A DNA stretch of 64,000 bases. Source: an uncultured Clostridia bacterium (GTDB lineage: Bacteria; Bacillota; Clostridia; Christensenellales; UBA1242). The stretch covers positions 1 through 64,000 of the forward strand of contig CALWKD010000020.1 of NCBI GenBank assembly GCA_944381175.1, in the 5' to 3' direction. Under the pieces are notes generated by a model. It saw nothing but the letters and a program-made list of their open reading frames with translations. It was not told the origin of the DNA and did no database searches. Position numbers and translations under genes: made by a program. Positions 9,037 to 24,293 of the stretch are shown here, in pieces; the first letter of the stretch is position 1; every line of letters starts with the position of its first letter.

Positions 9037-9064
9037 TTGACATTTAAAAAATAATTGTGATAAT
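9037..9064 (+). promoter_or_regulatory. Extended -10 promoter of the ESCRT-like operon
   Basis: A perfect TTGACA (9037-9042), a 16-nt spacer and GATAAT (9059-9064) preceded by TG-t at 9056-9058. AAGGAG at 9074-9079 belongs to a possible 5-codon leader frame and AAGGGG at 9097-9102 is the ribosome site of the first gene. Confidence 0.8.
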
Positions 9065-9107: not shown

Positions 9108-9956
9108 ATGGAACAAAATGTTATAACTTTCTCTGGTGACAATAAACAACTCTTCAATCGAATCAAAATTGAAGAACTCTCTCCAAGACTAAATCTTTTG
9201 GTGCCAGAAACTCACAATGCAATTCTCATAAAAGACGGGCAGATGCTCCAAACTCTGTCGTCTGGAAAATACCTCATAAGCAAATTTGTCGACCTAAAAA
9301 CTGAGGCGGACAGCAATTTGGAGGTTTTGTTTATGTCAAAGACGGCGAAACTGAATCTTTTGTGGGGAACTGCTCAGAAATTTTTGATGTATGATGCAAA
9401 TTTGCAAGAAAATTTCAAAATCGGAATGAGTGGTGATTATGATGTGCAAATTGGCGACCCGAGGAAATGCTATCTCTATCTGATTGGTGCGGACAACAAC
9501 TTGACCACTTCTGCACTTCAGGACAGGTTGCAGACGACGGTGGTGGCGGTCGTGGAGAATGTCGCCGTTGAGTATGTGAACGAACACAAGATTTTGTTCA
9601 ATCAAGTGACCGTCAAAAAGAGAGAAATCTCTGCGAAAATTCTTGAAAAACTCAATCAAAAACTTATGGGAGAATACGGAATTGCTGTTTATTCTTTCAA
9701 TATTGCAAATATTATCATTGACGAAGCCGATTACGAGAAGATGTTGAAAAGTTTGAAAAAGATTGAGGATGAACCACAACCACAAACGGATGTGCAAACT
9801 GAGACTTGTCCAAATTGCGGAGAGAAGTTGCTCCCAGGTGCAAAATTTTGCAACAACTGCGGAACAAAAATTGGCGGAGCAAAGGTTTGCCCAGATTGCA
9901 ATTTTGAAAACTTGGCAAATGCAAAATTCTGTTCAAATTGCGGAAGGAAATTTTAA
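9108..9956 (+). CDS. SPFH/Band-7 domain protein with C-terminal zinc ribbons (YdjI-like)
   Basis: A 282-residue protein. Residues 1 to about 215 fit the SPFH/Band-7 fold of the YdjI type ('virion core protein' in many annotations): early strand ETHNAILIKDGQMLQTL, a central region with DYDVQIGDPRKCY, and helices ending in GEYGIAVYSFNIANI. The last ~55 residues hold two C-x2-C...C-x2-C zinc ribbons (CPNCG/CNNCG and CPDC/CSNCG). SPFH proteins form membrane-associated platforms. In Bacillus the related YdjI is encoded beside the PspA homologue, itself an ESCRT-III superfamily member, which fits the present neighbours. ATG 9108 is chosen because AAGGGG lies 5 nt upstream; a GTG two codons earlier overlaps that site. 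It is the first gene of a seven-gene operon. Confidence 0.85.
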   Translation: MEQNVITFSGDNKQLFNRIKIEELSPRLNLLVPETHNAILIKDGQMLQTLSSGKYLISKFVDLKTEADSNLEVLFMSKTAKLNLLWGTAQKFLMYDANLQENFKIGMSGDYDVQIGDPRKCYLYLIGADNNLTTSALQDRLQTTVVAVVENVAVEYVNEHKILFNQVTVKKREISAKILEKLNQKLMGEYGIAVYSFNIANIIIDEADYEKMLKSLKKIEDEPQPQTDVQTETCPNCGEKLLPGAKFCNNCGTKIGGAKVCPDCNFENLANAKFCSNCGRKF

Positions 9957-9965
9957 GGAGGAGAT

Positions 9966-10382
9966 ATGATTGCTGTTTATATAATTATCTTGTTGGCGGT
10001 GCTTGGACTTGCGGTGTTCTTCATTTGGAAAGAATATGGAAAAAAGTGGACAAAAAGAGGCGACGGAGAAGAGACCGGAAGTCGTGGTGTGCTTAAAAAC
10101 AAAAAGTCCATTGAGAAAATGGTGGCAAATGTGGAGAGCATAATCGTTTACGCAAACGGAAATGACGAACTTTGCAGAAGACTTGTCGAAGTCAAGGACA
10201 ACATCAGGTTTTTCAACCCAACGACCGACCAAAAAGTTTTGGCGGTTGATGCAAAACTTGCAAACAAACTTGATGATTTGAAAATTCTTGTTGCGAAAGA
10301 CAACACCCAAGAGACTTGTTTCCGTATGCTTGAAGAAGTTGAGGCATACATAGTTCAGAGGAAAAAGGAAGAACAGGTATAA
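9966..10382 (+). CDS. Single-pass membrane protein of the ESCRT-like operon
   Basis: A 138-residue protein with one N-terminal membrane helix (about residues 3-22) followed by a basic stretch KEYGKKWTKR and a cytoplasmic helical domain (about residues 45-135). There is no known domain. The N-out/C-in topology would place a roughly 115-residue helical domain on the cytoplasmic side, where it could recruit partners to the membrane. GGAGGAG precedes the ATG, the gap to the SPFH gene is 9 nt, and its TAA overlaps the next ATG by one base (TAATG), so translation is coupled. The function is inferred from context only. Confidence 0.75.
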   Translation: MIAVYIIILLAVLGLAVFFIWKEYGKKWTKRGDGEETGSRGVLKNKKSIEKMVANVESIIVYANGNDELCRRLVEVKDNIRFFNPTTDQKVLAVDAKLANKLDDLKILVAKDNTQETCFRMLEEVEAYIVQRKKEEQV

Positions 10383-10741
10383 TGAAAAGGTTGTATGAGG
10401 CGTCGAGCGGTGTCAGTGAAGAGACAAAAGAGAGTGTTGTGAAGGAACTTCGCCTTGGGTATATGAATTTGGACGAGGGGATGTTTGAGCAAGCACGAAT
10501 AAATTTCCAATTGGCGATTTCGCTTGACCCGAAATGTGCGGATGCTTATTGGGGACTGATGCTTTTGAAGTTGAACATTCAAAACGAGGACGATTTGACG
10601 GAAAACCCAGTCACTTACAAAAATGCCATAAATTTGCCCGAATACCAAAAAGCAATGGAGACTGCGAGTGAAGAGAAAGAGAAGATCTATGACACGCTTA
10701 TGGAAGGGGTGAGGGCTGTCAATGCTGGCGACAACTATTAG
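10382..10741 (+). CDS. TPR-like adaptor protein of the ESCRT-like operon
   Basis: A 119-residue soluble protein with at least one recognisable TPR: LGYMNLDEGMFEQARINFQL then AISLDPKCADAYWGL, with the Gly/Ala/Pro spacing typical of the fold. The C-terminal part (YKNAINLPEYQKAMETASEE) also looks helical. The wording resembles the TPR segment found in zinc-ribbon/TIR proteins such as the one encoded at 13122. Likely a protein-protein adaptor. It overlaps the upstream stop by one base and is followed by the first ESCRT-III-like gene after 11 nt. Confidence 0.75.
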   Translation: MKRLYEASSGVSEETKESVVKELRLGYMNLDEGMFEQARINFQLAISLDPKCADAYWGLMLLKLNIQNEDDLTENPVTYKNAINLPEYQKAMETASEEKEKIYDTLMEGVRAVNAGDNY

Positions 10742-10752
10742 AAGGAGAATAT

Positions 10753-11364
10753 ATGTGGTTATTTAGGAGAAACAAGTTCAAAAAACTCAATCGTGAAGAT
10801 TTGGTAAATTCCATTTGCGAACTTGAAAGGCAGGAAAGGACAGTTGAGGCGGAGGTCTTGCAGAAAGTTAAAGAGATTGACGCTTTGATGGAGAAGGGTA
10901 AGAAGGAAAAGAGCAAAGATTTGCAACTTTTCTACGCCAAGAAAATTGCACACTTAAACGAAGAAAAGCAAACTTGTGTGGAAAGAGGGATGTATTTGCT
11001 TTACAACATAAGGCTTATGAACAAACTCAAGGACGCATACGACAGCAACACCTTTTTCAAGACACAAACCAAAGTTCCGCTCAGCGAACTTCTCAAAGAC
11101 CAAGTGGGGCTTGCAAAATTCTTAAACAAGGCACTTAGGACGAGGATTTCAAGCGAAGAGGTTTTGACGAGTGCGGATGAAGTGTTTTCGGAAGTTCAAT
11201 CAGCATACGATTTAAACCAACCAATCTATGGTGTTGGGAAAAGCGAAGAGGAAATTCTTGCAATGTTTGAAAAAGAAAATCAGTTGGCTGACGAACAGGA
11301 ACTTTCCACTCCAAAAGAGCGGACAGAGCCTGTTAAAAAGAAAAAATTAAAAATGGAGGAATAA
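10753..11364 (+). CDS. Candidate ESCRT-III-like coiled-coil protein (first copy)
   Basis: A 203-residue helical protein without a membrane segment. It starts with a short basic/aromatic amphipathic segment (MWLFRRNKFKKL), then a long helical hairpin: helix 1 about residues 14-48 and helix 2 about residues 52-97 (containing KDLQLFYAKKIAHLNEEKQ and ERGMYLLYNIRLMNKLKDAY). This is the layout of the Snf7/ESCRT-III core (basic alpha-1/alpha-2 hairpin). The C-terminal half is acidic (KSEEEILAMFEKENQLADEQ) and ends in a Pro- and Lys-containing tail, as ESCRT-III proteins have autoinhibitory acidic helices and MIT-binding tails. The fit is weaker than for the next gene. AAGGAG precedes the ATG; only one base separates its stop from the next start. 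Confidence 0.6.
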   Translation: MWLFRRNKFKKLNREDLVNSICELERQERTVEAEVLQKVKEIDALMEKGKKEKSKDLQLFYAKKIAHLNEEKQTCVERGMYLLYNIRLMNKLKDAYDSNTFFKTQTKVPLSELLKDQVGLAKFLNKALRTRISSEEVLTSADEVFSEVQSAYDLNQPIYGVGKSEEEILAMFEKENQLADEQELSTPKERTEPVKKKKLKMEE

Positions 11365-11365
11365 A

Positions 11366-11962
11366 ATGGGATTGTTTAAGTCAAAACAGGAAAAAGAAAT
11401 TGAAAAAAAGATGTTGGTGAAAAGGACTATCAACACAATGAACAAGCAAATCAACAGGCTTGAGGACCAAAAACAGGTCTTTATTGATGCTGCAAAGAGA
11501 GCAAAGGAGAAGGATCTTGATGCACAATTCAAACTTGCACTGAGTGGTTACAAGATGACTGTCCAACAGCAAAGAAGAGCACAGGAGATGCTTTTGAACT
11601 TTGAAATCACTGCACAGATGAAAGATGTGACGATGATGACATCTGATTTTCTTCGCGGAATGAGCGAAATCAGCAAGGATATGTCAAAACTTGCTGACGC
11701 AAAAGAGTTTGCAAAGATTCAAACACAATTTGAGGAGGCTATGGCTGCTGTTGAGACTCAAACCGACCAAATGGACAACTTTATGGAGATGAGCCAAGAG
11801 ACTTTCTATAATGCTGGAAAGGACAAGAAAGGTGCTGGAATGACGGACGAAGAGTTTGAGAAGTTCATCGAGGAGCAGGCAAGCCTTGACAATTTGTCAA
11901 GTGAGAGCATTGACAAAGAAATGGAAGAATTGAAGAAAAAGATTGATTCAACACAAGAATAA
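11366..11962 (+). CDS. ESCRT-III-like protein, Vps2/CHMP1 type (second copy)
   Basis: A 198-residue, all-helical protein with the charge switch of ESCRT-III: basic N-terminal half (MGLFKSKQEKEIEKK, then a long helical hairpin at about residues 10-85) and acidic C-terminal half. Residues 122-140 (FEEAMAAVETQTDQMDNFM) resemble the alpha-4 region of eukaryotic CHMP1, as I remember it. Near the end, residues 181-193 (SIDKEMEELKKKI) fit the hydrophobic/charged spacing of the MIM1 peptide that binds Vps4 MIT domains. Expected role: a membrane-bound polymer that deforms or cuts membranes and is disassembled by the ATPase encoded next. GGAGG precedes the ATG. PspA/Vipp1 are the known bacterial members of this superfamily, but this protein looks closer to the archaeal/eukaryotic type. 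Confidence 0.72.
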   Translation: MGLFKSKQEKEIEKKMLVKRTINTMNKQINRLEDQKQVFIDAAKRAKEKDLDAQFKLALSGYKMTVQQQRRAQEMLLNFEITAQMKDVTMMTSDFLRGMSEISKDMSKLADAKEFAKIQTQFEEAMAAVETQTDQMDNFMEMSQETFYNAGKDKKGAGMTDEEFEKFIEEQASLDNLSSESIDKEMEELKKKIDSTQE

Positions 11963-11977
11963 AGAGAGAAGAAAGAA

Positions 11978-13111
11978 TTGAAAGAGACGAGTATAACGGT
12001 TTTGTCTGACACCTTTGAACTCTATATGAGAAAAGGGAAGGAAGCGAAAGAAAAGGGAAACTTAAATCTTGCAAAGAAAAACTTCTTGCTTGCGGGCGAG
12101 ACGATGATGCAAATGGCAAAGCAGAGTCAAGGAAAACTTAAGGAAGCAAGAATGCAAAGGGCAAGGACTCTTGTGAATTTGGCGGAGAACCTCGGCAAGA
12201 AACCTCTCAAAGTGGAGAAAAAGACCGACGAAAGTGGCGAAGAGGATGAAGATGTCAAAAAATGGCAAACTGCAAAAATTCCAGATGTCAAGTTTTCTGA
12301 TGTCGCTGGGCTTGAGGATGTCAAGAAAGCCATCACAATCAGAATGATAAATCCAATCAAATATCCAGACAAATACAAAATGTATGGCAAGAAGACTGGC
12401 GGTGGAGTGCTTTTGTATGGGCCACCTGGGACAGGAAAAACGATGATTGCCAAGGCGATTGCAAATGAGGTTGGGGCGAAGTTTTATGCTGTGAAAGGCT
12501 CGGACATTGTCAGCAAATGGGTCGGCGACAGCGAGAAAAACATAAACTCGCTTTTTGAAGAAGCAAACAAGCAAGACAGGGCGATTATCTTTATTGACGA
12601 AATGGACAACCTTCTTGGACGCCGTGGAGTTGACACTCACAATGACAAGCGTGTCAATGAGTTTCTCCAGCAGATTGACGGTTTTTCTGGAAGAAATCCA
12701 AATTTGCTTCTTCTGGGGGCGACAAACAGACCTTGGGACATCGACAGTGCGGCGATGCGTTCGGGAAGATTTTCGCAAAAAATTTATCTGCCTCTTCCAG
12801 ATGCTCCAGCAAGAAAGTTTATGCTTGAGAAGAATATGAAAGGCGTGCCAGTTGCTGATGATTTTGATATTGACAAAATTGTTGCACAGACGGAAAATTA
12901 CAGCGGTGCGGACATTGAGGAACTTTGCGACAGGGCAAAGGATGATCCGCTTTTGGAAGCGATTGCAACCGACAGCATTGTAAAAGTTACAAACGAAGAT
13001 TTTGACAAGGTTTTGAAGATTTTTCCACCGAGCGTCACGCCGAAAGAAATTGAAAAGTTTGAAAGATACAATCAAGAAGTGAATGGACTTATAAAAAAGA
13101 AACAAAATTGA
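11978..13111 (+). CDS. Vps4-like AAA ATPase with N-terminal MIT-like domain
   Basis: A 377-residue AAA protein. Residues about 8-72 form three predicted helices (FELYMRKGKEAKEKGN, LNLAKKNFLLAGETM, RARTLVNLAENL) with the spacing of an MIT domain. After an acidic linker, the AAA module starts at KFSDVAGLEDVKKAI. Walker A is GPPGTGKT (148-155), the pore region SDIVSKWVGDSEKN, Walker B IIFIDE (203-208), sensor-1 Asn 250 (GATNRP), and arginine fingers at 261/264 (RSGRF). PLPDAPARK and the C-terminal helix region DFDKVLKIFPPSVTPKEIE match Vps4. The Vps4 beta-domain insertion appears absent. Likely role: ATP-driven remodelling of the ESCRT-III-like polymers encoded just upstream. A TTG start is used with an A/G-rich ribosome site; no better start is visible before the MIT region. 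Confidence 0.85.
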   Translation: MKETSITVLSDTFELYMRKGKEAKEKGNLNLAKKNFLLAGETMMQMAKQSQGKLKEARMQRARTLVNLAENLGKKPLKVEKKTDESGEEDEDVKKWQTAKIPDVKFSDVAGLEDVKKAITIRMINPIKYPDKYKMYGKKTGGGVLLYGPPGTGKTMIAKAIANEVGAKFYAVKGSDIVSKWVGDSEKNINSLFEEANKQDRAIIFIDEMDNLLGRRGVDTHNDKRVNEFLQQIDGFSGRNPNLLLLGATNRPWDIDSAAMRSGRFSQKIYLPLPDAPARKFMLEKNMKGVPVADDFDIDKIVAQTENYSGADIEELCDRAKDDPLLEAIATDSIVKVTNEDFDKVLKIFPPSVTPKEIEKFERYNQEVNGLIKKKQN

Positions 13112-13121
13112 GGGATAAAAA

Positions 13122-16100
13122 TTGAGAGAACGCGTTTGCAAAAATTGTGGAGGAAGACAATATGAAGTTGTTGGGCAGAATATGGTCAAGTGCCAATTCT
13201 GCGGGACTTTGTATGTCGACGAACACGCTTCAAAAGAGGAAGAAACGCTGACTGTTTGGGCTTATGAAAAAGTTAGGGAATTCAAGTTTGAAGAGGCAGT
13301 AGACGAATTTGAAAAAATTCTTTCAAGATATCCAATGTCTTTTGAGGCGTATTTCGGAAAAGTTTTGGCGAAAAACAAAATAATTTTGTATTCACGAAGA
13401 GGCACTTCCAGAAAGCGTCCTCGTTTTTTTGGTGACGGCGTTCCAAGTATAATTGACGACGAAGATTACAAAAAGGCGATTGAAAACGCTCCAGACGAGG
13501 TGAAGAAGTCTTACGAGGAGTCGGCAAATCGAATTGACAGAATCTCAAAGGCGTATTCGCAAAATGTTGGAAAAGTTTCGTATGATGTCTTTCTGACGGT
13601 TATGGATTTTGACAAGAAATCTCCAAACAAAAAGGTGGAGAAACTTGTTGAACTGTTGGAAGAGCGAGGTCTTTCCACTTATTTTGTTCAAGGGCTGGAG
13701 GTGAAAGAAAAGGAAGAGGACACTTTCAACGCACTCAAAACCGCCAATGTCCTTGTGCTTTATGCGAACAAAAAGACGGGCTATAACGAGTCAGAGGTCA
13801 AAAACTTTTTTGATAGATACACCTATTTTATTTCTCAAAAAGAAAAGACCTCTTCAAGTTTTATTATCGTCTTTGACAATCAAATCACCGAAGAGGACCT
13901 GCCAAAAGACCTCAGAGTGTTTAAAAACAGCGTTGATTTAACTGGGGATGAAATTGTCGACGACTTGGCAATAAAAATTTCAAATGAGAATGAGAAATCA
14001 AAAAGAGAGATTGCAAAAATTGAGAAAGTCAATGTTGAACATATCTCATCTGTCAAGAAAGAGAATGTGAATGTCGAGTCCATAAACACGACCGACCTCG
14101 GCTCTTACAAAGTGGAAAACATCGAGATGAGCGAGGCGAACAAAATCAAGTGGATTTTTGTCAGTCTCAAGAATGGAGATTTTGAAACCGCAAAAGAAAT
14201 CACGGAAAAGGAGTTGAAAAACGACCCAAACAATGCCGAACTTCTTTTTGCTTCGCTTTTGTGTGACAACAAAATCAGGACCGCAGGAGAATTTTTCTCA
14301 AGCATCTCAAACTTCAAAGAAAAGGACAGAATCGACCTTATTTTGAAGTATGCGTCCAAAGATTTTGCGGAGATGATTGTTGACAACTGGGAAAACCTTG
14401 TCATAAGCCTCGACAGCGAAGAATATTACAATGCTTTCCTGCTTTATCTTGCCCAATTCAACACTCCAAACCGAGACAAATTTATAAAGTGTGCAGAAGA
14501 GAAGGCTTTGGAGACGCTTGATGATTCGCTTATTGACAAAGTTCTTAGATGTTTCAAGAGCGATGAAGTCGACCGATTTGTAAATTTCTATTTTATGCTT
14601 GCCCAAAAGAGTGGCGATGACGAATATTACAAAAAGGTGCTTGACATCGACGTAGGGCACGAGCAAAGCAATATTGCTCTTCTTTTGAGGCATTTCAAGA
14701 CCGCCGATGACATATTGAATTACAGAGACAAAAGGCAGGTCGAGGACGTATTGAAATATCTCGGCAAAGACACGAGAGGACAACTTGTCTTTTCAATCGT
14801 CAATTTGATTTTGCCAGTTTCCTACATCGACTTGGATAAGGCACAAGGGCAGTTAGATTTTTATCTTGCATATGTTGAAGACGACAAAATGCTCGTCAAA
14901 ATTCTCAAGGCGATTGCGGTCTATTTTCAACAGATGAGATTTTTCAAGGCGGCAGAAAAATATATTTCCATTGCCATTTCCAAGGATAAGACGGATGCGA
15001 AACTATATTGGATTTTGATTCAAATCAAGTGCCATTGCGAGACAGAGTCCAAACTGATCAAGACAAATGTCAAACTCATCCAAATGCCAGAGTGGGAGAG
15101 TATGCTTGCTTGTGCCAACGAAAAGCAGACGGAAGCCTGCAGCGAGATTGTCAGCAAGGCAAACGCTTACACAGGTGCAAAATCCGAGATAACTGACGAA
15201 TGGCTCGACAAAAAGACCTTGACTGAGAAACTTGAAGATTTTGTTTTGAGAAACAACAAAATTTTGCTTGAATTGGTTGCTGAGGACAAAAACGCTATCT
15301 CAAGAGGTGCAAATTATTACAAATTGCAACTCGAGCCTTTCGAGAAATATTTGGAAGAGTTGAAGCAAGATTTGTCGCTTGAGAGTTATTCAAAGTTGTC
15401 AAAAAAGATTGCCACGAGGCTAGATCTTTTGGACTTGAGTTTGGATATGTCCATCAATGTGACAAAACTTTCTGGAAAGGAAGAATCTTTAAAGACTGTC
15501 AACATTGAAAAATTTGGCACAAAACCTGGCAAAAAGCGAAAAGAAAAACCAGCGTATGACCCATTGCAGATTGAGAAGCACAAAAAATTCACCAAGAGAT
15601 ATTTGTATGGATTTTTGGAGTTGTTTCCAGTCCTGTTTACAATGCTTCTGCTTGCGGTCATAATTGCTGTTCCAAAACAAGTCTACCTTTATTTTGGACA
15701 AAACTTTGTCATAGGACTGGTTTGCCTCAGTGCTGGAATTGGGCTTGTAAATTTGATTATTTATCTTATTAAGAAAAAGAAACTGCACAAAAATTGGAAA
15801 ATTGCTAACGTCTTTTTGATTGTGCTTGCTTTTTTGAATGTTGGACTTATGTGTGTCGGTTTTTATCTTATGCCGAATGTCATTTCAATTCAAAATGAAA
15901 AAGAATTTAGGACACTTATCCACAACGCACCATATGCAGAACTCCGACTAGACTCAGATTTGGATATGGAGGGAATTGAGTGGAAACCGTGCTTGTTTGA
16001 CGGAATCCTTGATGGAAACGGGCACAAAATCGAAAATTTAACAATCAAATCAGAAAAAAATATTTCGCTTTTCACAAAAAATTCTGGAGAAATAAAGTCG

Positions 16101-16949
16101 CTTGAAGTGTATTATTCCACATCGGCACTTGATGACATTTCAAACTTTGCAGGAATTGCTGTCAAAAACACAGGAAAAATCAAAGATTGTGCAGTTTACG
16201 CAGACGGAGCAATCACAATTTCGACAGGCAAAGATTTTGTATTTGGAGGGATTGCGTCCACCTCAAGCGGAACGATATTAAGGTGCAAAGTCGGGCTTAA
16301 CATTTTGATAAACTACACTGGAGACGACATCACTTTTGGTGGAATCGTCGGCGGTGTATCTGGCGGGAAAATTCCAAGAGTTGAGAAAAATGATGCCTCA
16401 ATTTATCTTTCGTTGGTCACAACAGGTGGGGCAGATGTTGAAGTCGGAGGACTGGCTGGGCTTGTCGATAGATTCGACGCAGATGAGATAACTCTTTGCA
16501 GAAACCACGCAAGCGTCACTTTCTCAATGAGCGGAACGGCAGATGAGATGTATGTTGGTGGACTTATTGGGAATGGTTTGAGCGGAAGTGAAAACAATTA
16601 TGCGACTGGAAGTATTGAGATTTTGACCACAGCAAAAGGATATGTCGGCGGTTTGTATGGCGAATACCTAAATTCTGACACCGAAGCCTCAATTTCTCAC
16701 AGTTATTCCACCGTGGCGATTGAGTGCGAGAGTGGATTGGAAGTTGATGGGCTTGTTGGAGCGTTAAGCGGAATTGTCAGATATAGTTTCACAAATAATT
16801 CCCGTCCAGTCTGTGCAAATATGCTTTCCTCTTTTGCAAATGCCGACCGATATGTTGAAAACAATGTGACCCGTTACGGCTCAAGGTTTCAGTTTGATGA
16901 TGAGATTTGGGATTTGTCAAACATAAACGGACTTCCGACTTTGCTGTGA
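13122..16949 (+). CDS. Zinc-ribbon/TPR/TIR-like/transmembrane/GLUG fusion protein
   Basis: A 1275-residue protein. Order: zinc ribbon (Cys 6, 9, 24, 27); TPR-like region 45-90; TIR-like domain about 153-290, starting YDVFLTVMDFD; long helical TPR-like region about 330-800; three membrane helices near 827-850, 861-882 and 895-918; and an extracellular C-terminal domain 925-1275 with GLUG-type repeats (LDGNGHKIENLTIKS, VGGLAGLV, VGGLIGN). The N-terminal half follows the zinc-ribbon/TPR/TIR architecture common in Bacillota, but where those proteins have N-E-W with the catalytic Glu, this one has N-F-F (about residues 228-230), so NADase activity is doubtful. TTG start with GAGGG 7 nt upstream, overlapping the ATPase stop. 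Last gene of the operon; likely a link between the cytoplasmic machinery and the cell surface. Confidence 0.82.
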   Translation: MRERVCKNCGGRQYEVVGQNMVKCQFCGTLYVDEHASKEEETLTVWAYEKVREFKFEEAVDEFEKILSRYPMSFEAYFGKVLAKNKIILYSRRGTSRKRPRFFGDGVPSIIDDEDYKKAIENAPDEVKKSYEESANRIDRISKAYSQNVGKVSYDVFLTVMDFDKKSPNKKVEKLVELLEERGLSTYFVQGLEVKEKEEDTFNALKTANVLVLYANKKTGYNESEVKNFFDRYTYFISQKEKTSSSFIIVFDNQITEEDLPKDLRVFKNSVDLTGDEIVDDLAIKISNENEKSKREIAKIEKVNVEHISSVKKENVNVESINTTDLGSYKVENIEMSEANKIKWIFVSLKNGDFETAKEITEKELKNDPNNAELLFASLLCDNKIRTAGEFFSSISNFKEKDRIDLILKYASKDFAEMIVDNWENLVISLDSEEYYNAFLLYLAQFNTPNRDKFIKCAEEKALETLDDSLIDKVLRCFKSDEVDRFVNFYFMLAQKSGDDEYYKKVLDIDVGHEQSNIALLLRHFKTADDILNYRDKRQVEDVLKYLGKDTRGQLVFSIVNLILPVSYIDLDKAQGQLDFYLAYVEDDKMLVKILKAIAVYFQQMRFFKAAEKYISIAISKDKTDAKLYWILIQIKCHCETESKLIKTNVKLIQMPEWESMLACANEKQTEACSEIVSKANAYTGAKSEITDEWLDKKTLTEKLEDFVLRNNKILLELVAEDKNAISRGANYYKLQLEPFEKYLEELKQDLSLESYSKLSKKIATRLDLLDLSLDMSINVTKLSGKEESLKTVNIEKFGTKPGKKRKEKPAYDPLQIEKHKKFTKRYLYGFLELFPVLFTMLLLAVIIAVPKQVYLYFGQNFVIGLVCLSAGIGLVNLIIYLIKKKKLHKNWKIANVFLIVLAFLNVGLMCVGFYLMPNVISIQNEKEFRTLIHNAPYAELRLDSDLDMEGIEWKPCLFDGILDGNGHKIENLTIKSEKNISLFTKNSGEIKSLEVYYSTSALDDISNFAGIAVKNTGKIKDCAVYADGAITISTGKDFVFGGIASTSSGTILRCKVGLNILINYTGDDITFGGIVGGVSGGKIPRVEKNDASIYLSLVTTGGADVEVGGLAGLVDRFDADEITLCRNHASVTFSMSGTADEMYVGGLIGNGLSGSENNYATGSIEILTTAKGYVGGLYGEYLNSDTEASISHSYSTVAIECESGLEVDGLVGALSGIVRYSFTNNSRPVCANMLSSFANADRYVENNVTRYGSRFQFDDEIWDLSNINGLPTLL

Positions 16950-17017
16950 AGATTTTGAATATTAAAATCAGCAAGACTTTGGCAATGTTCGCAAACAGCA
17001 GAAAAATTGGTTAAAAC

Positions 17018-17042
17018 AAAAAAGTTCTTCGGAACTTTTTTT
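17018..17042 (+). terminator. Terminator of the ESCRT-like operon
   Basis: AAAAAAGTTC pairs with GAACTTTTTTT around a stable TTCG tetraloop. It is the first strong terminator after the seven genes, about 70 nt beyond the last stop. Confidence 0.9.
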
Positions 17043-17083
17043 GACCAAATGTCATAAAAATTTTGAGATGATTCATAAAATCA

Positions 17084-17182: not shown

Positions 17183-18907
17183 GTGGGAAAAATTTTTAGA
17201 AATTTTAAATGGTATGAATACCTATTGATTTTGCTCAATGTTGCTATAGTTGTCACTCAGGTTTATTTTGAGATGGAACTTATCGACAAAATGGCAGAAT
17301 TGATTGGCAAGGTGCAAGCGGTTGAAACGGTTGCATCAATTTGGAGGTCTGGAAGGATGATGCTCTTGTATGCGGGCATAATTATGGTTGCGAGCATTGC
17401 CTCTGCTGGACTTGTGACATACATCTCTTCCAAATTTTCAGAAAGGCTAAGAGCGGACGTGTTTAGGACTGTGAATGGCTTTTCTCAAGAGGAGATAAAC
17501 AAATTCTCAACCGCCAGCCTTATCACAAGAAGCACAAACGATGTCACACAAATTCAAACAACAATGCAAATGGTTTTGCGTGCTGGAATTATGGCTCCAA
17601 CAATGACGATTTTCTCAATTATCAATATGGTGAACAGCAGTGCCCAACTCAGTTGGACGACGGGGATTTCTGTTATTGTGATGTTTGTACTTTTTGGGCT
17701 CTTGTTTTTCTTGGTTGTGCCAGCCTTCAACAAAATTCAAAAGCAAACAGACCGCTTAAACTCAGTCACAAGAGAAAACCTGACTGGTGTGAGAGTCGTC
17801 AGGGCTTACAACACCGAAAAATTGCAAGAAGAAAAGTTTGACGGCGTAAATAAGGAACTCACAAAACTCAACCTTTACACAGGGAGAGTTATGAGTATGA
17901 TGAACCCTTTTATGAACCTCATCTTCAATGGCTTGACTTTGGCGATTTATTGGCTTGGTGCACACCTTATAAACACCACCTCTTTGGTTTATTCTGATTT
18001 GGTTGCGTTCACGCAGTATGGAATGCACATTTTGATGGGCTTTATGTTTTTGTCAATGATCATTGTGATGTTGCCAAGAGCGATTGTCAGCGGAAAGAGA
18101 ATTGGCGAGGTTTTGGGGACAAAAACAAAGATTGTTCCAGGAACATTTGACGGCGAGACGGAAGTTAAAGGGAAAGTTGAGTTTAGAAATGTTTCCTTTA
18201 GGTATCCAGATGCCGAAATGAATGTCCTTGAAAACATAAATTTTGTTGCAAATCAGGGCGAGACGGTTGCGTTTATTGGTTCGACTGGGAGTGGGAAGTC
18301 CACTTTGGTGAACCTCATCCCAAGATTTTTCGATGTATCTTATGGGCAAATTTTGATTGACGGCGTTGATGTCAAAGAATACACTCACGATGCATTAAAC
18401 AAAAAACTCGGCTTCGTTCCGCAGAAAGGGGTTTTGTTCAGCGGGACAGTTGAGGAAAATGTCAAATATGGCGCGGAGGATATTTCGGAAGAAGAAGTTC
18501 AAAGAGCACTCAAAATTTCTCAATCAGATTTCGTGAAGAAACTTGATGGCGGGTTGCAATATGAGGTTGCTCAAGGCGGAACAAATGTCTCGGGTGGACA
18601 GAGACAAAGATTGTGTATTGCAAGAGCAATTGCAAAATCTCCAGAAATCTATGTTTTCGATGACAGTTTTTCTGCACTTGATTACAAGACCGACAAGAAA
18701 TTGAGAAAGGCACTTGCAAAAAACACCAAGGATGCAACAAAAATCATTGTCGCACAAAGAGTTGGGACCATTATGGATGCAGACAAAATCATCGTGTTGG
18801 ACAACGGAAGAATGGTTGGAATGGGCACACATAAAGAGTTGCTGGAAAATTGCGATGTTTACAAAGAAATTGCCCTTTCACAACTTTCAAAGGAGGAACT
18901 GCAGTAA
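17183..18907 (+). CDS. ABC exporter half-transporter, degenerate-site subunit
   Basis: A 574-residue type IV ABC exporter half: six membrane helices in residues 1 to about 310, then an ATPase domain. Walker A is GSTGSGKST, the Q-loop LGFVPQKG, the signature NVSGGQRQRL, and Walker B ends in VFDDSFSALD. The residue after the Walker B Asp is Asp, not the catalytic Glu, as in the degenerate-site subunit of heterodimeric exporters of the TM287/288 or LmrCD type. It should pair with the next gene product to export drugs, lipids or peptides. The GTG start has AGGAG upstream; its TAA overlaps the next ATG by one base. Confidence 0.93.
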   Translation: MGKIFRNFKWYEYLLILLNVAIVVTQVYFEMELIDKMAELIGKVQAVETVASIWRSGRMMLLYAGIIMVASIASAGLVTYISSKFSERLRADVFRTVNGFSQEEINKFSTASLITRSTNDVTQIQTTMQMVLRAGIMAPTMTIFSIINMVNSSAQLSWTTGISVIVMFVLFGLLFFLVVPAFNKIQKQTDRLNSVTRENLTGVRVVRAYNTEKLQEEKFDGVNKELTKLNLYTGRVMSMMNPFMNLIFNGLTLAIYWLGAHLINTTSLVYSDLVAFTQYGMHILMGFMFLSMIIVMLPRAIVSGKRIGEVLGTKTKIVPGTFDGETEVKGKVEFRNVSFRYPDAEMNVLENINFVANQGETVAFIGSTGSGKSTLVNLIPRFFDVSYGQILIDGVDVKEYTHDALNKKLGFVPQKGVLFSGTVEENVKYGAEDISEEEVQRALKISQSDFVKKLDGGLQYEVAQGGTNVSGGQRQRLCIARAIAKSPEIYVFDDSFSALDYKTDKKLRKALAKNTKDATKIIVAQRVGTIMDADKIIVLDNGRMVGMGTHKELLENCDVYKEIALSQLSKEELQ

Positions 18908-20724
18908 TGGAACGACAAACAAGAAAAGTTTCACCTATGCGTGGTCCAGGCGGACACGGAATGGGTTCGACAGCGAGAGCAAAGAATTTTAAAAAGAGCT
19001 TCATCCAACTTGGAAAATCTCTGAAATCTTTCAAATGGATGATCATAGTGGCACTTGTGTTTGCGGTTGCCAGCACCGCCTTGAACATTATCTCACCAAC
19101 GATCATCAAAAATTTGGGTGAGGTTATCATTGTCGGCGGAAAGAACATTGATATGAACAGAGTGATGCACTATGGAATCGTGCTCATCTGTATGTATGTT
19201 GGAAGCGGTATATTAAACTTTTTGCAAGGTTTTATTATGGCGAAAGTAACTGCTGTTGTGACAAAACAATATCGAACTGACATTAGTAAAAAGATAAACC
19301 GTTTGCCACTTAAATATTTCGACAACAATCAAATCGGCGACACTTTGAGCCGTGTGACAAACGATGTTGACACGCTTGGTCAAAGTTTGGCAAACAGTTT
19401 GAGCAGTGCCATTTCGAGTGTAACGATGATTATCGGTGCAGTCATAATGATGTTTGTAAACAGTTGGCTTTTGACACTCGTCACTTTTGCAATTATGCCA
19501 ATCTCAATTGGGCTTGTGCTTCTTATCGTCAAGTTCTCACAGAAGCATTTCGTTAAGCAACAAGATGATTTGGGTGAGATAAATGGCCAAATTGAAGAAA
19601 TTTATTCTGCGCATAATGTTGTGACAGTTTTCAGTGGTGAGAAAAAGGCTCAAAAGAAATTTGATAAGACCAATTTGGGACTTTTCAAGTCTTCATTCAA
19701 GGCAAACTTTCTAAGTAGCCTTATGCAACCCATGATGAATTTTATTGGAAATTTGTCATATGTTGTGATTTGCCTTTTGGGCGGATATATCGCAATCAAA
19801 AACGGGGATCCAATTTTCGCGGCAACAATTGTTACTTTTGTGACCTATATGAGAATCTTCAATAACCAAGTGAGCAATATCGCAAACATTTCAAGCACAT
19901 TGCAATCAACCGCTGCAGCAAGCGAGAGAGTGTTTGAGTTTTTGGAAGAGGAAGAGCAGGAAGAGGAACACAAAGAATGGCAACTTCAAACTGTCAAAGG
20001 TGATGTTGAATTTAAAAATGTTTGCTTCGGCTATAACCCAGACAAGATAATCATTCACGATTTCAATGTGAAAGTTAAGGCGGGGCAAAAAGTGGCAATT
20101 GTCGGCCCGACGGGAGCAGGAAAGACCACTCTTGTAAATTTGCTTATGAGATTCTATGAAGTGAACAGTGGAGACATTTTGATTGACGGAGTCTCAATCA
20201 AGGATATGCCAAGAGAAGAAGTGCGAAGTTACTTCGGTATGGTTTTGCAGGACACTTGGCTTTTTGAAGGGACAATCAGAGAAAATGTAAGTTACGGAAC
20301 AGAAGGTTTGACAAACGAACAAATCGAAAAGGCCTGCAGTTTTGCTCATATTGACCACTTCATCAGGTCATTGCCAGGTGGATATGATATGGTGATTGAC
20401 GAAAAGGCGAACATCAGTCAGGGGCAAAGACAACTTTTGACCATTGCGAGAGTTATGGTAAACAACGCCCCAATGCTTATTTTGGATGAGGCGACAAGTT
20501 CGGTGGACACCAGAACAGAAGAAATCATCCAAAAGGCGATGGATAAACTCTCCGAAGGCAGAACTTCATTTGTCATTGCACACAGACTTTCGACAATCAA
20601 AAATGCAGATATCATCCTCGTGCTTAAAGACGGCGACATTGTTGAAAGTGGAAACCACGAAGAACTTTTGGTAAAGGGTGGTTTCTATGCAGACCTATAC
20701 AACAGCCAATTTGAAGAAACTTAA
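18907..20724 (+). CDS. ABC exporter half-transporter, catalytic-site subunit
   Basis: A 605-residue partner of the preceding protein. A Gly-rich cytoplasmic leader (MRGPGGHGMG) precedes six membrane helices. The ATPase domain has Walker A GPTGAGKTT, Q-loop FGMVLQDTW, signature NISQGQRQLL (with Gln in place of Gly, common in this class) and a canonical Walker B LILDEATSSVD with the catalytic Glu. The H-loop is IAHRLST. The two genes are translationally coupled (TAATG) and share the operator-controlled promoter at 17084. The substrate cannot be read from the sequence. Confidence 0.94.
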   Translation: MERQTRKVSPMRGPGGHGMGSTARAKNFKKSFIQLGKSLKSFKWMIIVALVFAVASTALNIISPTIIKNLGEVIIVGGKNIDMNRVMHYGIVLICMYVGSGILNFLQGFIMAKVTAVVTKQYRTDISKKINRLPLKYFDNNQIGDTLSRVTNDVDTLGQSLANSLSSAISSVTMIIGAVIMMFVNSWLLTLVTFAIMPISIGLVLLIVKFSQKHFVKQQDDLGEINGQIEEIYSAHNVVTVFSGEKKAQKKFDKTNLGLFKSSFKANFLSSLMQPMMNFIGNLSYVVICLLGGYIAIKNGDPIFAATIVTFVTYMRIFNNQVSNIANISSTLQSTAAASERVFEFLEEEEQEEEHKEWQLQTVKGDVEFKNVCFGYNPDKIIIHDFNVKVKAGQKVAIVGPTGAGKTTLVNLLMRFYEVNSGDILIDGVSIKDMPREEVRSYFGMVLQDTWLFEGTIRENVSYGTEGLTNEQIEKACSFAHIDHFIRSLPGGYDMVIDEKANISQGQRQLLTIARVMVNNAPMLILDEATSSVDTRTEEIIQKAMDKLSEGRTSFVIAHRLSTIKNADIILVLKDGDIVESGNHEELLVKGGFYADLYNSQFEET

Positions 20725-20779: not shown

Positions 20780-21346
20780 ATGATGAGAGTTCTTTTCTTT
20801 TTTATGGGAGTGCCAATGATGATAGTATCTTTTTTTCAAGCGACACAGGCTTTGCCTTACGCGACAGATTACAACGTTTATGTGAATGGAAATGTGGTTG
20901 AGATTTCCGAGGCGGACAAGGAAGTTATCAAGGAAAAAGTGGAGACGATTTTTGAAAATTCCCACACTTTACCCGCCTTTGCAGTCACAACCGACGAGAT
21001 TTTTCACGAGCAAATCAAGGACGGGATTTTTGTGTCCATAAAGTTTGACAACGTCTTGCACATAAACGAATTGCCGTTCGACGAACTGGTTTTCAAGATG
21101 GAAAAAGACACACACGGTTTCAATTTGTTTAGAGGAATGAATGGAATTTTCCAAGGCAGATGCATTTATATTGATATGATGGACGGCAATATGAACGATT
21201 TGTATGACTTTTTGACCAAGTTTGATAAAGAAGAAAGTCTGGAACAAGAAAGCGAAGAAGAACAACTTCCGAGCGGAGACGGCAGTGTGGTCGAGGAAGA
21301 AAAATCCGACTTGTCAAATGGAGAAGTGTTGCAATCTGAGGAATAA
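20780..21346 (+). CDS. Secreted or membrane-anchored acidic protein, unknown
   Basis: A 188-residue protein with an N-terminal hydrophobic segment (about residues 3-24, ending near QATQALPYA) that could be a signal peptide or anchor. The mature part (residues 25-150) looks alpha/beta with short charged helices. The last ~35 residues are a low-complexity acidic tail rich in Glu and Ser. AAGGAG precedes the ATG. It lies 55 nt after the ABC exporter and before a terminator, so it could belong to the same transcript. I recognise no family. Confidence 0.65.
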   Translation: MMRVLFFFMGVPMMIVSFFQATQALPYATDYNVYVNGNVVEISEADKEVIKEKVETIFENSHTLPAFAVTTDEIFHEQIKDGIFVSIKFDNVLHINELPFDELVFKMEKDTHGFNLFRGMNGIFQGRCIYIDMMDGNMNDLYDFLTKFDKEESLEQESEEEQLPSGDGSVVEEEKSDLSNGEVLQSEE

Positions 21347-21348
21347 AT

Positions 21349-21380
21349 AAAAAGGGATTTCAATATAGAAATTCCTTTTT
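21349..21380 (+). terminator. Intrinsic terminator after the 20780 gene
   Basis: AAAAAGGGATTTC pairs with GAAATTCCTTTTT around a 6-nt loop with one mismatch. Confidence 0.8.
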
Positions 21381-21416
21381 TGTTTAATTTTCACTCGCAA
21401 TGACAAAAATCTCTTT

Positions 21417-22082
21417 GTGGATTATATTTTGATTGCGCTGATGATAATTTATGGTATTAAGGGATATAGAAAAGGATTTTTTTACGCATTTTTATCCCTT
21501 ATTTTCTTTTTTCTGAGCATTTTTTTGTCTTTCAAATTGCGCGAATTTGGCTCAGATATTTTGAGAAATGTGAGTTTTTTAAGCGATTTTGCTGAAAACG
21601 CCCTGCCAAATTTGTTAAATGATGTCATTCCAGGAGTTTTCACTTCGGTGGAAGGGTTGATTGAATTTTTGTCAGTCAAGCAATCGCTTTTTTATTTTCT
21701 TTTGTTGAAACTTGCAAATGGCATAAATTTTGAGGGAGAACTCACGAGCGGGCAGATTTTGGGTGGAACGGTTGCAGACCAATTTTTCAACTTGGTGTCA
21801 TTTCTTTTGATTTATCTTTTGCTGACGATAGTGTTTTTTGTAATAAAAAAAATAATAGTGAAAATTTTAGTTAGAAACAAGTTGTTGTCTTTTGATAGAG
21901 TGATTGGAAGTTTGTTTGGTCTTCTAAAAGGTGCAATTTTCGCTGTTTTTGTGCTTTTTGTTGTGATTTTGTTTTCAAATTTGACTGCAAATCAATCGGT
22001 TTTTCAGTTTGCCACTTCGGGAAACTTTTCAAAATTTTTGTATGAGAATTTTATAATAAAAATTATTGATCTTATATTTTAA
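21417..22082 (+). CDS. CvpA-family membrane protein
   Basis: A 221-residue membrane protein that fits the CvpA (colicin V production) family: N-terminal MDYILIALMIIYGIKGYRKGFF (Asp-aliphatic start, G-x-x-K/R-G-F motif), a second helix with SLIFFFLSIFLSF, and a late segment FDRVIGSLFGLLKGAIFA that matches the family's D-R-x-x-G-x-x-x-G-x-x-x-G motif. Four membrane helices are visible. Bacterial CvpA proteins are linked to envelope homeostasis; the biochemical role is unknown. The start is GTG with no clear ribosome site, so an internal start is possible. The last bases overlap the convergent gene at 22072. Confidence 0.75.
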   Translation: MDYILIALMIIYGIKGYRKGFFYAFLSLIFFFLSIFLSFKLREFGSDILRNVSFLSDFAENALPNLLNDVIPGVFTSVEGLIEFLSVKQSLFYFLLLKLANGINFEGELTSGQILGGTVADQFFNLVSFLLIYLLLTIVFFVIKKIIVKILVRNKLLSFDRVIGSLFGLLKGAIFAVFVLFVVILFSNLTANQSVFQFATSGNFSKFLYENFIIKIIDLIF

Positions 22083-22341
22083 AGTCAATAATCTTTTTCA
22101 TATATATTTGTTTTAAACCTTCTTCAGTTGTTGGAGGAGTTTCCTCTTCTTGATTTTCCTCATCGTCTGGCAAAATGTCCTCAAGTTCATCATTTTTGTT
22201 TTTGGTGTCTTCTGTTCTGTTCTTTAGGTCGACGATTATTGCAATTGTGACAATGATTGCAATCACAAACAAAATTATCAAAACAAATGAAACTATTTGA
22301 AAGGTGCTAAACTTTTTCCACCATTTTTTTTCTTCTTGCAT
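22072..22341 (-). CDS. Small single-pass membrane protein at the divIC position
   Basis: An 89-residue protein: basic N-terminus (EEKKWWKKF), one membrane helix (about residues 14-37), a short charged helix (DLKNRTEDTKNKNDELEDIL) and an acidic, Pro-containing tail. It follows yabP and yabQ, the place occupied by divIC in Bacillus, and has the topology of FtsB/DivIC, but the coiled coil is much shorter than usual, so the assignment is positional and tentative. AAAGGA precedes the ATG; its first 35 nt overlap the 3' end of yabQ. Confidence 0.55.
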   Translation of the reverse strand: MQEEKKWWKKFSTFQIVSFVLIILFVIAIIVTIAIIVDLKNRTEDTKNKNDELEDILPDDEENQEEETPPTTEEGLKQIYMKKIIDFKI

Positions 22342-22666
22342 CTCTTTTTCCTTTGGCTGTATTGTACCATTTTATTATAAGATTTGCAAGAAATTTTTGG
22401 GAAACAAATCTTTCAATTGAAAATGCAAGGAAAAATATAAAAATAGTGAAAAACCTTATTTCTCCATAATTTATTTTTAAATTAACAAAAAAATATATAA
22501 AAAAAACAAAAATAATAGCAAAAAACAATAAAATTTGATTTAAAATCTTATTTTTTTTTAAAAAATACATTAAAATATTTTTTAAATCAAAAATAATTCC
22601 CGAAAAAAGCCCAACGCACGATAAAATGAGGCAAATAATTGGTTGGGATAATGATTCATAAAGCAT
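22307..22666 (-). CDS. yabQ: YabQ-like spore cortex biosynthesis membrane protein
   Basis: A 119-residue membrane protein with three hydrophobic segments. After an N-terminal stretch SLSQPIICLILSCVGLFSGI comes the F-D-L motif region (FDLKNILMYFLKK), typical of YabQ, which is needed for spore cortex formation in Bacillus. The position directly after yabP (2 nt gap) matches the conserved sporulation order. The C-terminus is strongly basic (KGKRDARRKKMVEKV). Confidence 0.72.
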   Translation of the reverse strand: MLYESLSQPIICLILSCVGLFSGIIFDLKNILMYFLKKNKILNQILLFFAIIFVFFIYFFVNLKINYGEIRFFTIFIFFLAFSIERFVSQKFLANLIIKWYNTAKGKRDARRKKMVEKV

Positions 22667-22668
22667 TT

Positions 22669-22917
22669 TTATTTGAATAACCTTTTAATTAAACTTGTTT
22701 TTTCTGCTTTTTTTGAATATTTTAGTGAATTTATTGCACCTCTAATATTTACTTCTTTATTTTCCAGATCCAATTTTGTTATTTCCAAATTTTGCCCTGA
22801 GATGATTATGTTACAGTCACCGACTTCCACGACCGATTGGTTTTCGGTGGAAGAGACCATTTTTGTTGCACCAGTCAAAACGACAAAAGACCTATTTTCG
22901 ATTGTTATGTTTTCCAT
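22669..22917 (-). CDS. yabP: Sporulation protein YabP
   Basis: An 82-residue protein matching YabP/YqfC: ENRSFVVLTGATKMVSSTEN, then VGDCNIIISGQNLEITKLDLEN and a C-terminal segment with INSLKYSKK. This small beta-rich protein is made in the mother cell and needed for spore envelope or cortex assembly. The start at 22917 is chosen for AAAGGAG just upstream; a longer frame upstream is hydrophobic and would overlap the divergent pseudouridine synthase gene. Upstream, CATATT and CGATATCT on the minus strand resemble a sigma-E-type promoter with a short spacer. This is direct evidence that the organism's lineage makes endospores. Confidence 0.82.
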   Translation of the reverse strand: MENITIENRSFVVLTGATKMVSSTENQSVVEVGDCNIIISGQNLEITKLDLENKEVNIRGAINSLKYSKKAEKTSLIKRLFK

Positions 22918-22934
22918 TTTAAACTCCTTTTTGT

Positions 22935-22962
22935 TTGAAAAATTTGAGATATCGGTTATAAT
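22935..22962 (+). promoter_or_regulatory. Promoter of the pseudouridine synthase gene (leaderless transcript)
   Basis: TTGAAA (22935-22940), 16 nt, then a perfect TATAAT (22957-22962). The start codon at 22970 lies at the expected transcription start, and no ribosome site is visible. Confidence 0.6.
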
Positions 22963-22969
22963 ATAAAAT

Positions 22970-23788
22970 ATGAACAAGAAAGAGATAATAGTAGAAAAAA
23001 ATAAAAAACTTGTGACAATTCTTCAAGATTTCGGCTTTTCTTTTGCTGATGTAAACAAAATGCTTCGAAACAAAGACGTCAGGATAAATGGAAAAATTGA
23101 AAAGGGAAATCCAGAGGTCCAAGCGGGAAGTGAAGTTGCGTTTTATTATTCGGATGATATGCTCGAAAAGAAGTATCAAATTGTCTTTGAGTCTGAGAAT
23201 GTTGTTATCGTCTACAAGAGTGCAGGAATTGAAACGGCGGGAGATTCGGGACTTGAGAAAATTATCTCTGGGGCGATTGCGGTTCATAGGCTCGACCGAA
23301 ACACTGAGGGGCTTGTGATTTTTGCAAAAAACAGCGATGCGGAAGAAAAACTTAACACGGCTTTCAAAAACAAACTCGTGCACAAGTTTTATGTCGCGGA
23401 GGTTGTCGGAGATTTGAATTGCTCTGGGAAGATTTTTTCTGCTTATCTTTCCAAAGATAGCGAATCCTCTTTTGTTAAGATTTCGGACAAAAAAGTGCCA
23501 AATTCCACAAAAATTCAAACAAAAATCACCACAATTAAGCACGGCAGTCAAAGTAGTCTTGTTTGCGTGGAACTTTTAACTGGTAAAACTCATCAAATAA
23601 GAGCACATCTTGCTTTCCTTGGACACGCGATAATCGGTGACGGCAAATATGGAAAAAATGAAGACAACAAAAAGTTTGGGCAGTCAAGGCAAAAGTTGGC
23701 GTGCTTCAAATTGGAGTTTGATAAGATTGGAATTGAGGAATTGGACGGGAAAACTTTTGAAAAGAAGCCGAAGTGGTGGAATTTTTAA
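22970..23788 (+). CDS. RluA-family 23S/tRNA pseudouridine synthase
   Basis: A 272-residue protein with an N-terminal S4-like RNA-binding region (residues 10-60, with VNKMLRNKDVRINGK) and the RluA catalytic domain. The catalytic Asp is in HRLDRNTEGLVIFAKN (about residue 108). Later family motifs include LLTGKTHQIRAHLAFLGH and IIGDGKYG. It converts uridine to pseudouridine in rRNA or tRNA; the target position cannot be told from sequence. The ATG is 7 nt after a perfect -10 box, so the mRNA is probably leaderless. Divergent from yabP. Confidence 0.92.
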   Translation: MNKKEIIVEKNKKLVTILQDFGFSFADVNKMLRNKDVRINGKIEKGNPEVQAGSEVAFYYSDDMLEKKYQIVFESENVVIVYKSAGIETAGDSGLEKIISGAIAVHRLDRNTEGLVIFAKNSDAEEKLNTAFKNKLVHKFYVAEVVGDLNCSGKIFSAYLSKDSESSFVKISDKKVPNSTKIQTKITTIKHGSQSSLVCVELLTGKTHQIRAHLAFLGHAIIGDGKYGKNEDNKKFGQSRQKLACFKLEFDKIGIEELDGKTFEKKPKWWNF

Positions 23789-23819
23789 CAACATTCGACT
23801 TGAAATCATATAAACCTAT

Positions 23820-24293
23820 ATGGGTGAGATTTTGAAGGTCAACTCTTATTATGAGGGGTTGTTGCAAAACCTTTTTGGAGGGGCAAGGGGATGCTTTTCC
23901 AACTTTATGAATTTCTTTTATCAATACAATCAAATTTTGCAATTTGCTCCAGAAAATTGCAACTGTATGCAATTTTTGTTCAAAAAAGAGTTGGAAAACT
24001 GCGAAATTTTGTCACAACTTTTGATTAAAATTGGCGGAGATAACAGATTTTATTCAAGTTCAAGAAAATATTTGTCGGGATACAATGTTGACTACTGCAA
24101 ATCTGTTTCAAAAATGTTTATTTCTGATGTGGAACTGCTTGAAATTGGTGTGATTGAGACCAAAAATGCCATCCAAAAGATTGAAAATGCGGTCATTAAA
24201 AAAGAGTTAAAGAAAATTTTGGAAAATAAAAAACAAGAATTAAAATTCTTAAAAGAGACATTTTTCAGAAATAATTTATTAAAAAATCAATAA
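23820..24293 (+). CDS. Degenerate ferritin-like protein
   Basis: A 157-residue helical protein. The segment LENCEILSQLLIKIGGDNRF followed by YSSSRKYLSGYNVDY corresponds to the E-x-x-H-x-E...LGGDPR-Y region of ferritin-like proteins found in spore formers (YhjR/rubrerythrin-type). The histidines normally expected in the two E-x-x-H motifs are replaced (ELENCE and ENKKQE), so di-metal binding is probably lost. A small Cys cluster (CNC at about residue 48) is unusual. No ribosome site is seen before the ATG; the start is the first ATG in frame. The role is unknown; a structural role in the spore is possible. Confidence 0.6.
   Translation: MGEILKVNSYYEGLLQNLFGGARGCFSNFMNFFYQYNQILQFAPENCNCMQFLFKKELENCEILSQLLIKIGGDNRFYSSSRKYLSGYNVDYCKSVSKMFISDVELLEIGVIETKNAIQKIENAVIKKELKKILENKKQELKFLKETFFRNNLLKNQ

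Follow-up and report, generated by a model that had tools for sequence, protein, structure and literature searches.

We analyzed a 64,000-nucleotide stretch from an uncultured Clostridia bacterium (contig CALWKD010000020.1, positions 1 to 64,000; hereafter, the window), in which seven genes, here called A to G, form an operon that probably encodes a bacterial membrane-remodeling machine of the ESCRT-III/Vps4 type (ESCRT, endosomal sorting complex required for transport) on an SPFH protein platform. The source genome comprises 1.08 Mb in 21 contigs. All seven open reading frames lie on the plus strand, as do the features described below, and are separated by intergenic gaps of -1 to 15 nucleotides. 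Upstream lies an extended -10 promoter of the sigma-70 type (9037..9064; TTGACA, a spacer of 16 nucleotides and GATAAT, with TG before the second hexamer; 11/12), the top scorer among the 32 sites listed (17.3 expected in shuffles). Downstream, at about 17018..17042, lies an intrinsic-terminator-like hairpin with a TTCG loop and a T run, which shows a folding z of -4.5 (17008-17050) and is not in the output of a terminator scan of the window. The reading frames, the promoter score and the hairpin z confirm the initial annotation in its description of seven packed genes running from such a promoter to a TTCG terminator.

The first gene, A (9108..9956), encodes an SPFH/Band-7 protein (Pfam Band_7_1, 1.6e-15) with a C-terminal double zinc ribbon (9804-9947; DZR, 1.8e-10), and at least two CxxC motifs are found in the last 90 residues of 69 of the 70 A relatives that exceed 240 amino acids. 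B (9966..10382) is a small protein whose one hydrophobic segment by hydropathy, residues 2-20, forms a single N-terminal membrane segment; this segment is found in 37/37 loci with C versus 14/36 loci without C. C (10382..10741) is a small, subtype-specific protein with a TPR-like match (5.4e-4, 20 bits) below the Pfam cut-off of 26.8. It is followed by D (10753..11364), probably a first ESCRT-III-like protein; by E (11366..11962), the second; and by F (11978..13111), an MIT-AAA Vps4-like ATPase. G (13122..16949) combines a zinc-ribbon-like CxxC pair, a TPR/helical region, a degenerate TIR domain (residues 152-266; 13575..13919), a hydrophobic cluster of membrane segments (residues 832-923 by hydropathy; 15615..15890) and a large C-terminal part. 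Among the domains initially assigned, the SPFH domain and zinc ribbon of A, the AAA domain of F, the membrane segments of B and G and the TIR domain of G were recovered, while the TPR of C stayed below its cut-off and the GLUG part of G had no Pfam match at E<=1.

The operon is genuine, and it is conserved. A scan with E of 84,980 species, each represented by one genome, found 94 relatives, and the 80 loci kept come mostly, judging by their titles, from metagenome-assembled genomes of uncultured Clostridia, including Christensenella, Candidatus Coproplasma and Candidatus Caccovivens. Counting a gene as present when it stood in the same gene run as E (contig ends cut some loci), we found F in 78/80 loci, D in 75/80, A and B in 72/80 each, G in 65/80, C in 37/80 and a trypsin-like gene, H, in 24/80; the exact order A-B-C-D-E-F-G occurred in 32/80. 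The operon is more than a chance arrangement, since nearly every gene run with E includes F, and the genes travel together, the outcome on which the initial annotation had made its interpretation depend. In six near relatives, the best kept genes were D (73-89% identity), E (71-91%) and F (77-88%), with B at 52-82%, A at 49-76%, C at 46-59% and G at 40-61%.

The link to ESCRT-III leads through E. Searched by tblastn against 72,556 plasmid records (E<=0.001), E found a sole match, a plasmid protein of Thermococcus peptonophilus (2e-8, 26% identity), and the two aligned at 3e-16 in pairwise BLASTP and at 4e-10 in hhalign. A profile of the E family gave the Thermococcus protein 45 bits (E 2.4e-12, Z=5000), whereas none of 4,816 decoys scored above 11.1 bits. 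Genes for a Ser/Thr kinase, a Vps4-type ATPase (Vps4_C, 7.7e-9) and a PP2C phosphatase precede that of this protein, with two more small proteins upstream in the plasmid locus. According to the survey of Makarova et al. 2024, ESCRT loci of the "Main" clade, including those of Thermococcales, hold Vps4 and ESCRT-III genes and often kinase and phosphatase genes (PMC10936438); because its gene content is as published for that clade, we infer that the plasmid locus belongs to it. By sequence, then, E has a homologue encoded beside a Vps4 gene in an archaeon, which makes it a relative of ESCRT-III at one remove. The Thermococcus protein itself matches Pfam Snf7 at 4.2e-4, below the cut-off.

Fold searches gave ESCRT-III the top ranks for both E and D, without significant E-values. 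The model of E, with a predicted local distance difference test (pLDDT) score of 69, consists of helices at residues 7-48, 52-107, 112-151, 161-175 and 178-197, and a Foldseek search ranked Sulfolobus islandicus CdvB first, at an E-value of 0.093 and TM-scores of 0.25-0.28. Among the 50 rows listed, 15 were chains of the ESCRT-III superfamily, many of them from few entries, and ferritins and BAR domains appeared too. For D (model pLDDT, 67.5), which has no Pfam match at E<=1, the top matches were CdvB2 chains (probability 0.97, E 0.15, TM-scores 0.42-0.45), and chains of the ESCRT-III superfamily accounted for 26 of 50 rows, again many from few entries. The fold searches suggested by the initial annotation thus placed neither protein outside the ESCRT-III fold, CdvB2 and CdvB ranking first, but at nonsignificant E-values. 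These top ranks also constitute the case for a primary cell-division machine like archaeal Cdv, which we consider very improbable: the genome encodes FtsZ (438 bits), and 15/25 same-genus genomes gave no F match at E<=1e-60. Cell division was rejected as the main role on these two grounds.

The C terminus of E carries a candidate docking site for an ATPase of the Vps4 type. A helix at residues 182-193 (IDKEMEELKKKI; 11909..11944) follows the pattern I-D-K-E-[LMI]-x-x-[LIV]-[KR]-K, with MIM1-like spacing, and this pattern is present in 56/57 family members versus about 5% of shuffled tails, although it was drawn up after the tails had been seen. The consensus given for MIM1 is (D/E)xxLxxRLxxL(K/R) (PMC5141497). 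As a separate observation, an E-like protein in one related locus (L058:1495-3030) is apparently fused to a long ATPase-like region that is FtsK-like by eye only.

F brings the features of the putative motor. Pfam recognizes the AAA domain (2.9e-42) and, at residues 336-367 (12983..13078), the Vps4_C oligomerization element (22.4 bits, above the cut-off of 21.3), which was matched in 11/11 aligned F members at E<=0.1 and in 0/3 bacterial single-AAA relatives at E<=0.005. The alignment of F with the Thermococcus Vps4 covers almost the full length (29% identity over residues 13-370), and the CdvC model NF041006 was aligned to residues 8 to 366 of F. It is from these Vps4/CdvC alignments that an MIT-like region is assigned to residues 8-75 (11999..12202). 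A profile of the N terminus of F found one haloarchaeal Vps4 at 5.8e-5, and its matches to four other Vps4s were weak, at 0.06 to 0.65, with the best among 4,000 shuffles at 0.2. The Pfam MIT family was not among the best 25 of 46 and best 25 of 56 families for F, and the MIT region alone retrieved nothing significant from the PDB (best, a designed protein at 0.087 and an oomycete chitin synthase at 0.26). Makarova et al. 2024 recognize Vps4 by an MIT domain or by ESCRT genes in the neighborhood (PMC10936438), and in the case of F it is E that provides the latter. In an AAA tree of 47 rows (34 of them F; Vps4 from Chlorohelix and from archaea outside TACK), a cluster of F with bacterial single-AAA proteins was joined by the Vps4 rows at 98/94, away from Cdc48 and FtsH. 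Besides this, one relative's F (L027:9857-11875) carries an extra AAA domain with an AAA_lid_6 between its MIT-like region and its Vps4-like AAA domain.

A number of observations weigh against the assignment to ESCRT-III and Vps4. On the side of the filament proteins, no fold match of D or E reached E<=0.001, the top TM-scores quoted above are low, and both searches used models of modest pLDDT and ran without a control fold. Profiles of E and D, including wider ones with archaeal proteins, reached no ESCRT-III chain among PDB sequences, and neither did the two Thermococcus proteins tried likewise. D is linked to the Thermococcus locus only weakly (HMMER, 10.8 bits, with one decoy at 11.4; hhalign probability, 48% with one small protein and 0.2% with the other, P0006, to which hhalign thus shows no link), its match to a small Chloroflexota protein is weak as well (15.4 bits), and comparison of the D and E profiles gave no convincing alignment. 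In its tail, E has a Glu where MIM1 has Arg. Pfam Snf7 leads the matches of E members (18/57 at E<=1, the strongest at 3.3e-4), but an unrelated Pfam family matched 21/60 D members, as many as Snf7 in E, for which reason we do not use these counts as proof. E itself had no Pfam match above the cut-off, and a Snf7 search of its own genome gave nothing at E<=1. Since none of 14 control genomes, Sulfolobus included, contained a Snf7 match over the cut-off either, this family is a poor test. On the side of the ATPase, F scores 214.7 bits against the CdvC model, short of the curated cut-off of 650; the Vps4-like protein of Candidatus Chlorohelix shows no Vps4_C at E<=0.005; and a search of PDB sequences with F ranks Cdc48/p97 first, although the same holds for the Thermococcus Vps4. 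Within the tree, the nearest relatives of F are bacterial single-AAA proteins (99/95), with long branches flagged by the program, and the approximately unbiased test rejects neither F with Vps4 (0.193) nor F with Cdc48 (0.152), so that the tree leaves the place of F unfixed. The AAA phylogeny proposed in the initial annotation accordingly groups F with bacterial single-AAA proteins and Vps4 but does not decide between Vps4 and Cdc48.

The nonsignificant structural E-values and the Cdc48/p97 matches could also be explained if F were an AAA chaperone that works on a membrane scaffold of coiled-coil proteins outside the ESCRT-III family, whose helical hairpins would resemble ESCRT-III by convergence. 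We consider this quite unlikely in view of the E homologue in a Vps4-bearing archaeal locus, the Vps4_C element of F and the conserved MIM1-like tail. Computation supports E and F as homologues of products of an archaeal locus of the ESCRT type, and D is probably ESCRT-III-like, though less certainly than E. The ESCRT-III/Vps4 core initially proposed is thus upheld by the homology of E, the Vps4_C element, the top fold ranks of D and E and the gene set, but not by significant fold E-values or by a fixed place for F in the tree. The term "complete," which had also been applied to the system, is not borne out, as the window operon has no Pfam match to ESCRT-I/II or to a winged-helix partner.

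If the operon does encode an ESCRT-III/Vps4-type machine, A is likely to be its membrane platform or recruiter. In Bacillus subtilis, PspA depends on the SPFH/Zn-finger protein YdjI to reach the membrane (PMC8581546), and this recruitment serves as our model for A and B, which together would form a platform at the cytoplasmic membrane. E and D might polymerize on this platform as ESCRT-III filaments, and F would dock through its N-terminal MIT domain onto the MIM1-like helix of E and extract subunits from the polymer, leading to remodeling and recycling. C and the membrane-spanning G, with its degenerate TIR/TPR part, may act as sensor or adaptor. By analogy with PspA and YdjI, the most likely job of such a machine would be envelope maintenance or repair. 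PspA was matched in 0/41 sampled relatives, which is why the machine may serve this purpose; neither was there a PspA_IM30 match in the own genome or among the Pfam matches of D and E. Against this link, 30 of the same 41 relatives have no F at E<=1e-60.

Other purposes can be envisaged for the same core, and since they share it, our confidences in them need not sum to one. A role in defense is kept open by what accompanies the core in related loci, namely, TIR domains, proteases of the trypsin type and BrxL-like genes: a defense or cell-death system on an ESCRT-like scaffold would sense membrane damage by phage or toxins and respond through TIR, protease or BrxL-like effectors. Each of the four relatives of G that were scanned contains a TIR_2 domain (9.4e-11 to 2.4e-8), and 25 of the 79 G-type proteins listed have a WVKNEW-like motif. 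In 7/80 loci (e.g., L080:13029-14468), the region downstream of the cluster includes a BrxL-like gene (BREX Lon-like protein), which a contig end cuts in one of them; the one H scanned, from the 24 loci with this gene, matched Trypsin_2 at 1e-28. The window itself fits less well. Its TIR domain matches a profile of the relatives' TIR domains (3.4e-14, Z=1000), but the Glu of the WVKNEW motif, the catalytic residue of TIR domains, is replaced, and the domain is not counted as a catalytic TIR; moreover, the operon has neither H nor a BrxL gene. PADLOC matched F to IetA models (best, 133 bits), which we read as general AAA similarity because NCBIfam IteA gives F 112.7 bits versus a cut-off of 510. 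With F below this cut-off and no protease match among the Pfam matches of the window operon, the IetAS anti-phage system is not indicated.

Distribution bears on defense in both directions. Presence is patchy: at E<=1e-60, F was detected in 11/41 relatives searched, namely, 10/25 same-genus genomes (own included) and 1/16 other members of the order. An E profile built partly from these 41 genomes matched 33/297 genomes of the order, spread over 19/125 genera, and 3/341 of the class, all three from the genus of the source organism, while a later profile matched in the phylum only the own genome (1/398). On the other hand, 27/36 loci of the A-G subtype have the same ABC (ATP-binding cassette) gene downstream, which looks more inherited than mobile. 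We regard a defense role as rather unlikely. A broader proposal is that MIT-MIM1 contacts would link an SPFH platform, a pair of ESCRT-III subunits and a Vps4 motor to interchangeable TIR, protease and BrxL-like partners, making up a self-contained ESCRT-based module for membrane-damage surveillance and immunity, which Clostridia would have obtained from archaea or have in common with them; this is tentative and likewise rather unlikely. Apart from this, two or three E-like matches occur in 8 of the 33 matching genomes of the order, and a search of phage records with E gave nothing at E<=0.001.

The architecture of G, in which membrane segments are followed by a large C-terminal part, is also what one might expect if the machine served vesicle budding or the sorting of G-like surface proteins. 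Archaeal ESCRT loci with SPFH/zinc-ribbon proteins have been proposed to sort proteins into vesicles (PMC10936438). In a walled cell, however, this would require extra steps, and we consider it unlikely.

Downstream of the operon, a pair of ABC transporter genes occupies positions 17183-20724 of the window, followed at 21001-24000 by DNA with a G+C content of 0.30-0.32, versus about 0.40 in the operon. The 27 loci with the first ABC gene, among the 36 that have both C and G, have it at most two genes downstream of G, and two of the nine misses end at G. In genomes that gave no hit to the operon, the ABC pair has other neighbors: six genomes of the same genus, all without an F match, contain the downstream ABC genes beside different genes, one has a 30% match to the upstream SDR (short-chain dehydrogenase/reductase) gene, and none shows a clean empty site.

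Among known systems, the archaeal Main clade comes close, with homologues of E and F at the Thermococcus plasmid locus and small coiled-coil genes near an AAA gene bearing Vps4_C; the operon differs in being bacterial and in having an SPFH/zinc-ribbon protein, B and G instead of kinase, phosphatase and winged-helix partners. The "Meth_adaptin" ESCRT loci of Methanobacteriales share, by description, an SPFH protein with a coiled coil and a zinc ribbon (PMC10936438), whereas the window operon has no Pfam match to their adaptin-like, GOLD and ProX parts. The pspA-ydjGHI operon of B. subtilis likewise joins ESCRT-III-superfamily, SPFH/Zn-finger and membrane proteins, but the portion of its published account available to us describes no Vps4-like ATPase (PMC8581546), and PspA was not detected in the genome studied here. 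The statement in the initial annotation that no such bacterial system had been described has to be tempered, because, according to Ravi et al. 2024, several lineages of bacteria have VPS4-like ATPases, and PspA/Snf7 genes occur beside AAA+ ATPases (PMC11237479). These operons resemble ours in their Vps4-like or AAA+ ATPases, some with Snf7 or PspA, and differ in having a TPR/6TM gene in place of snf7, or transporter and OmpA-type proteins as partners; the A-G set was not found among the systems in the accessible part of that paper, nor was the SPFH-B-D-E-F set found in literature searches of open-access papers. Finally, on a plasmid of Candidatus Chlorohelix (Chloroflexota), a Vps4-like ATPase directly follows two small coiled-coil-like genes, also in a bacterium, although a kinase gene comes next and no SPFH gene is annotated in the stretch seen. 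This region (NZ_CP128401.1; L144:1-2455) may be a second bacterial locus of the ESCRT type.

The filament proteins and disassembly motor of ESCRT are unexpected in bacteria, and the survey of Makarova et al. 2024 describes such systems as confined to archaea and eukaryotes (PMC10936438). If our interpretation is correct, an operon with ESCRT-III and Vps4 on an SPFH platform would extend this machine to the third domain of life, allow the link between ESCRT-III and SPFH proteins to be tested with few genes and bear on the question of whether Vps4-driven ESCRT arose in archaea. It would also offer a compact system for reconstituting membrane remodeling driven by MIT-MIM contacts.

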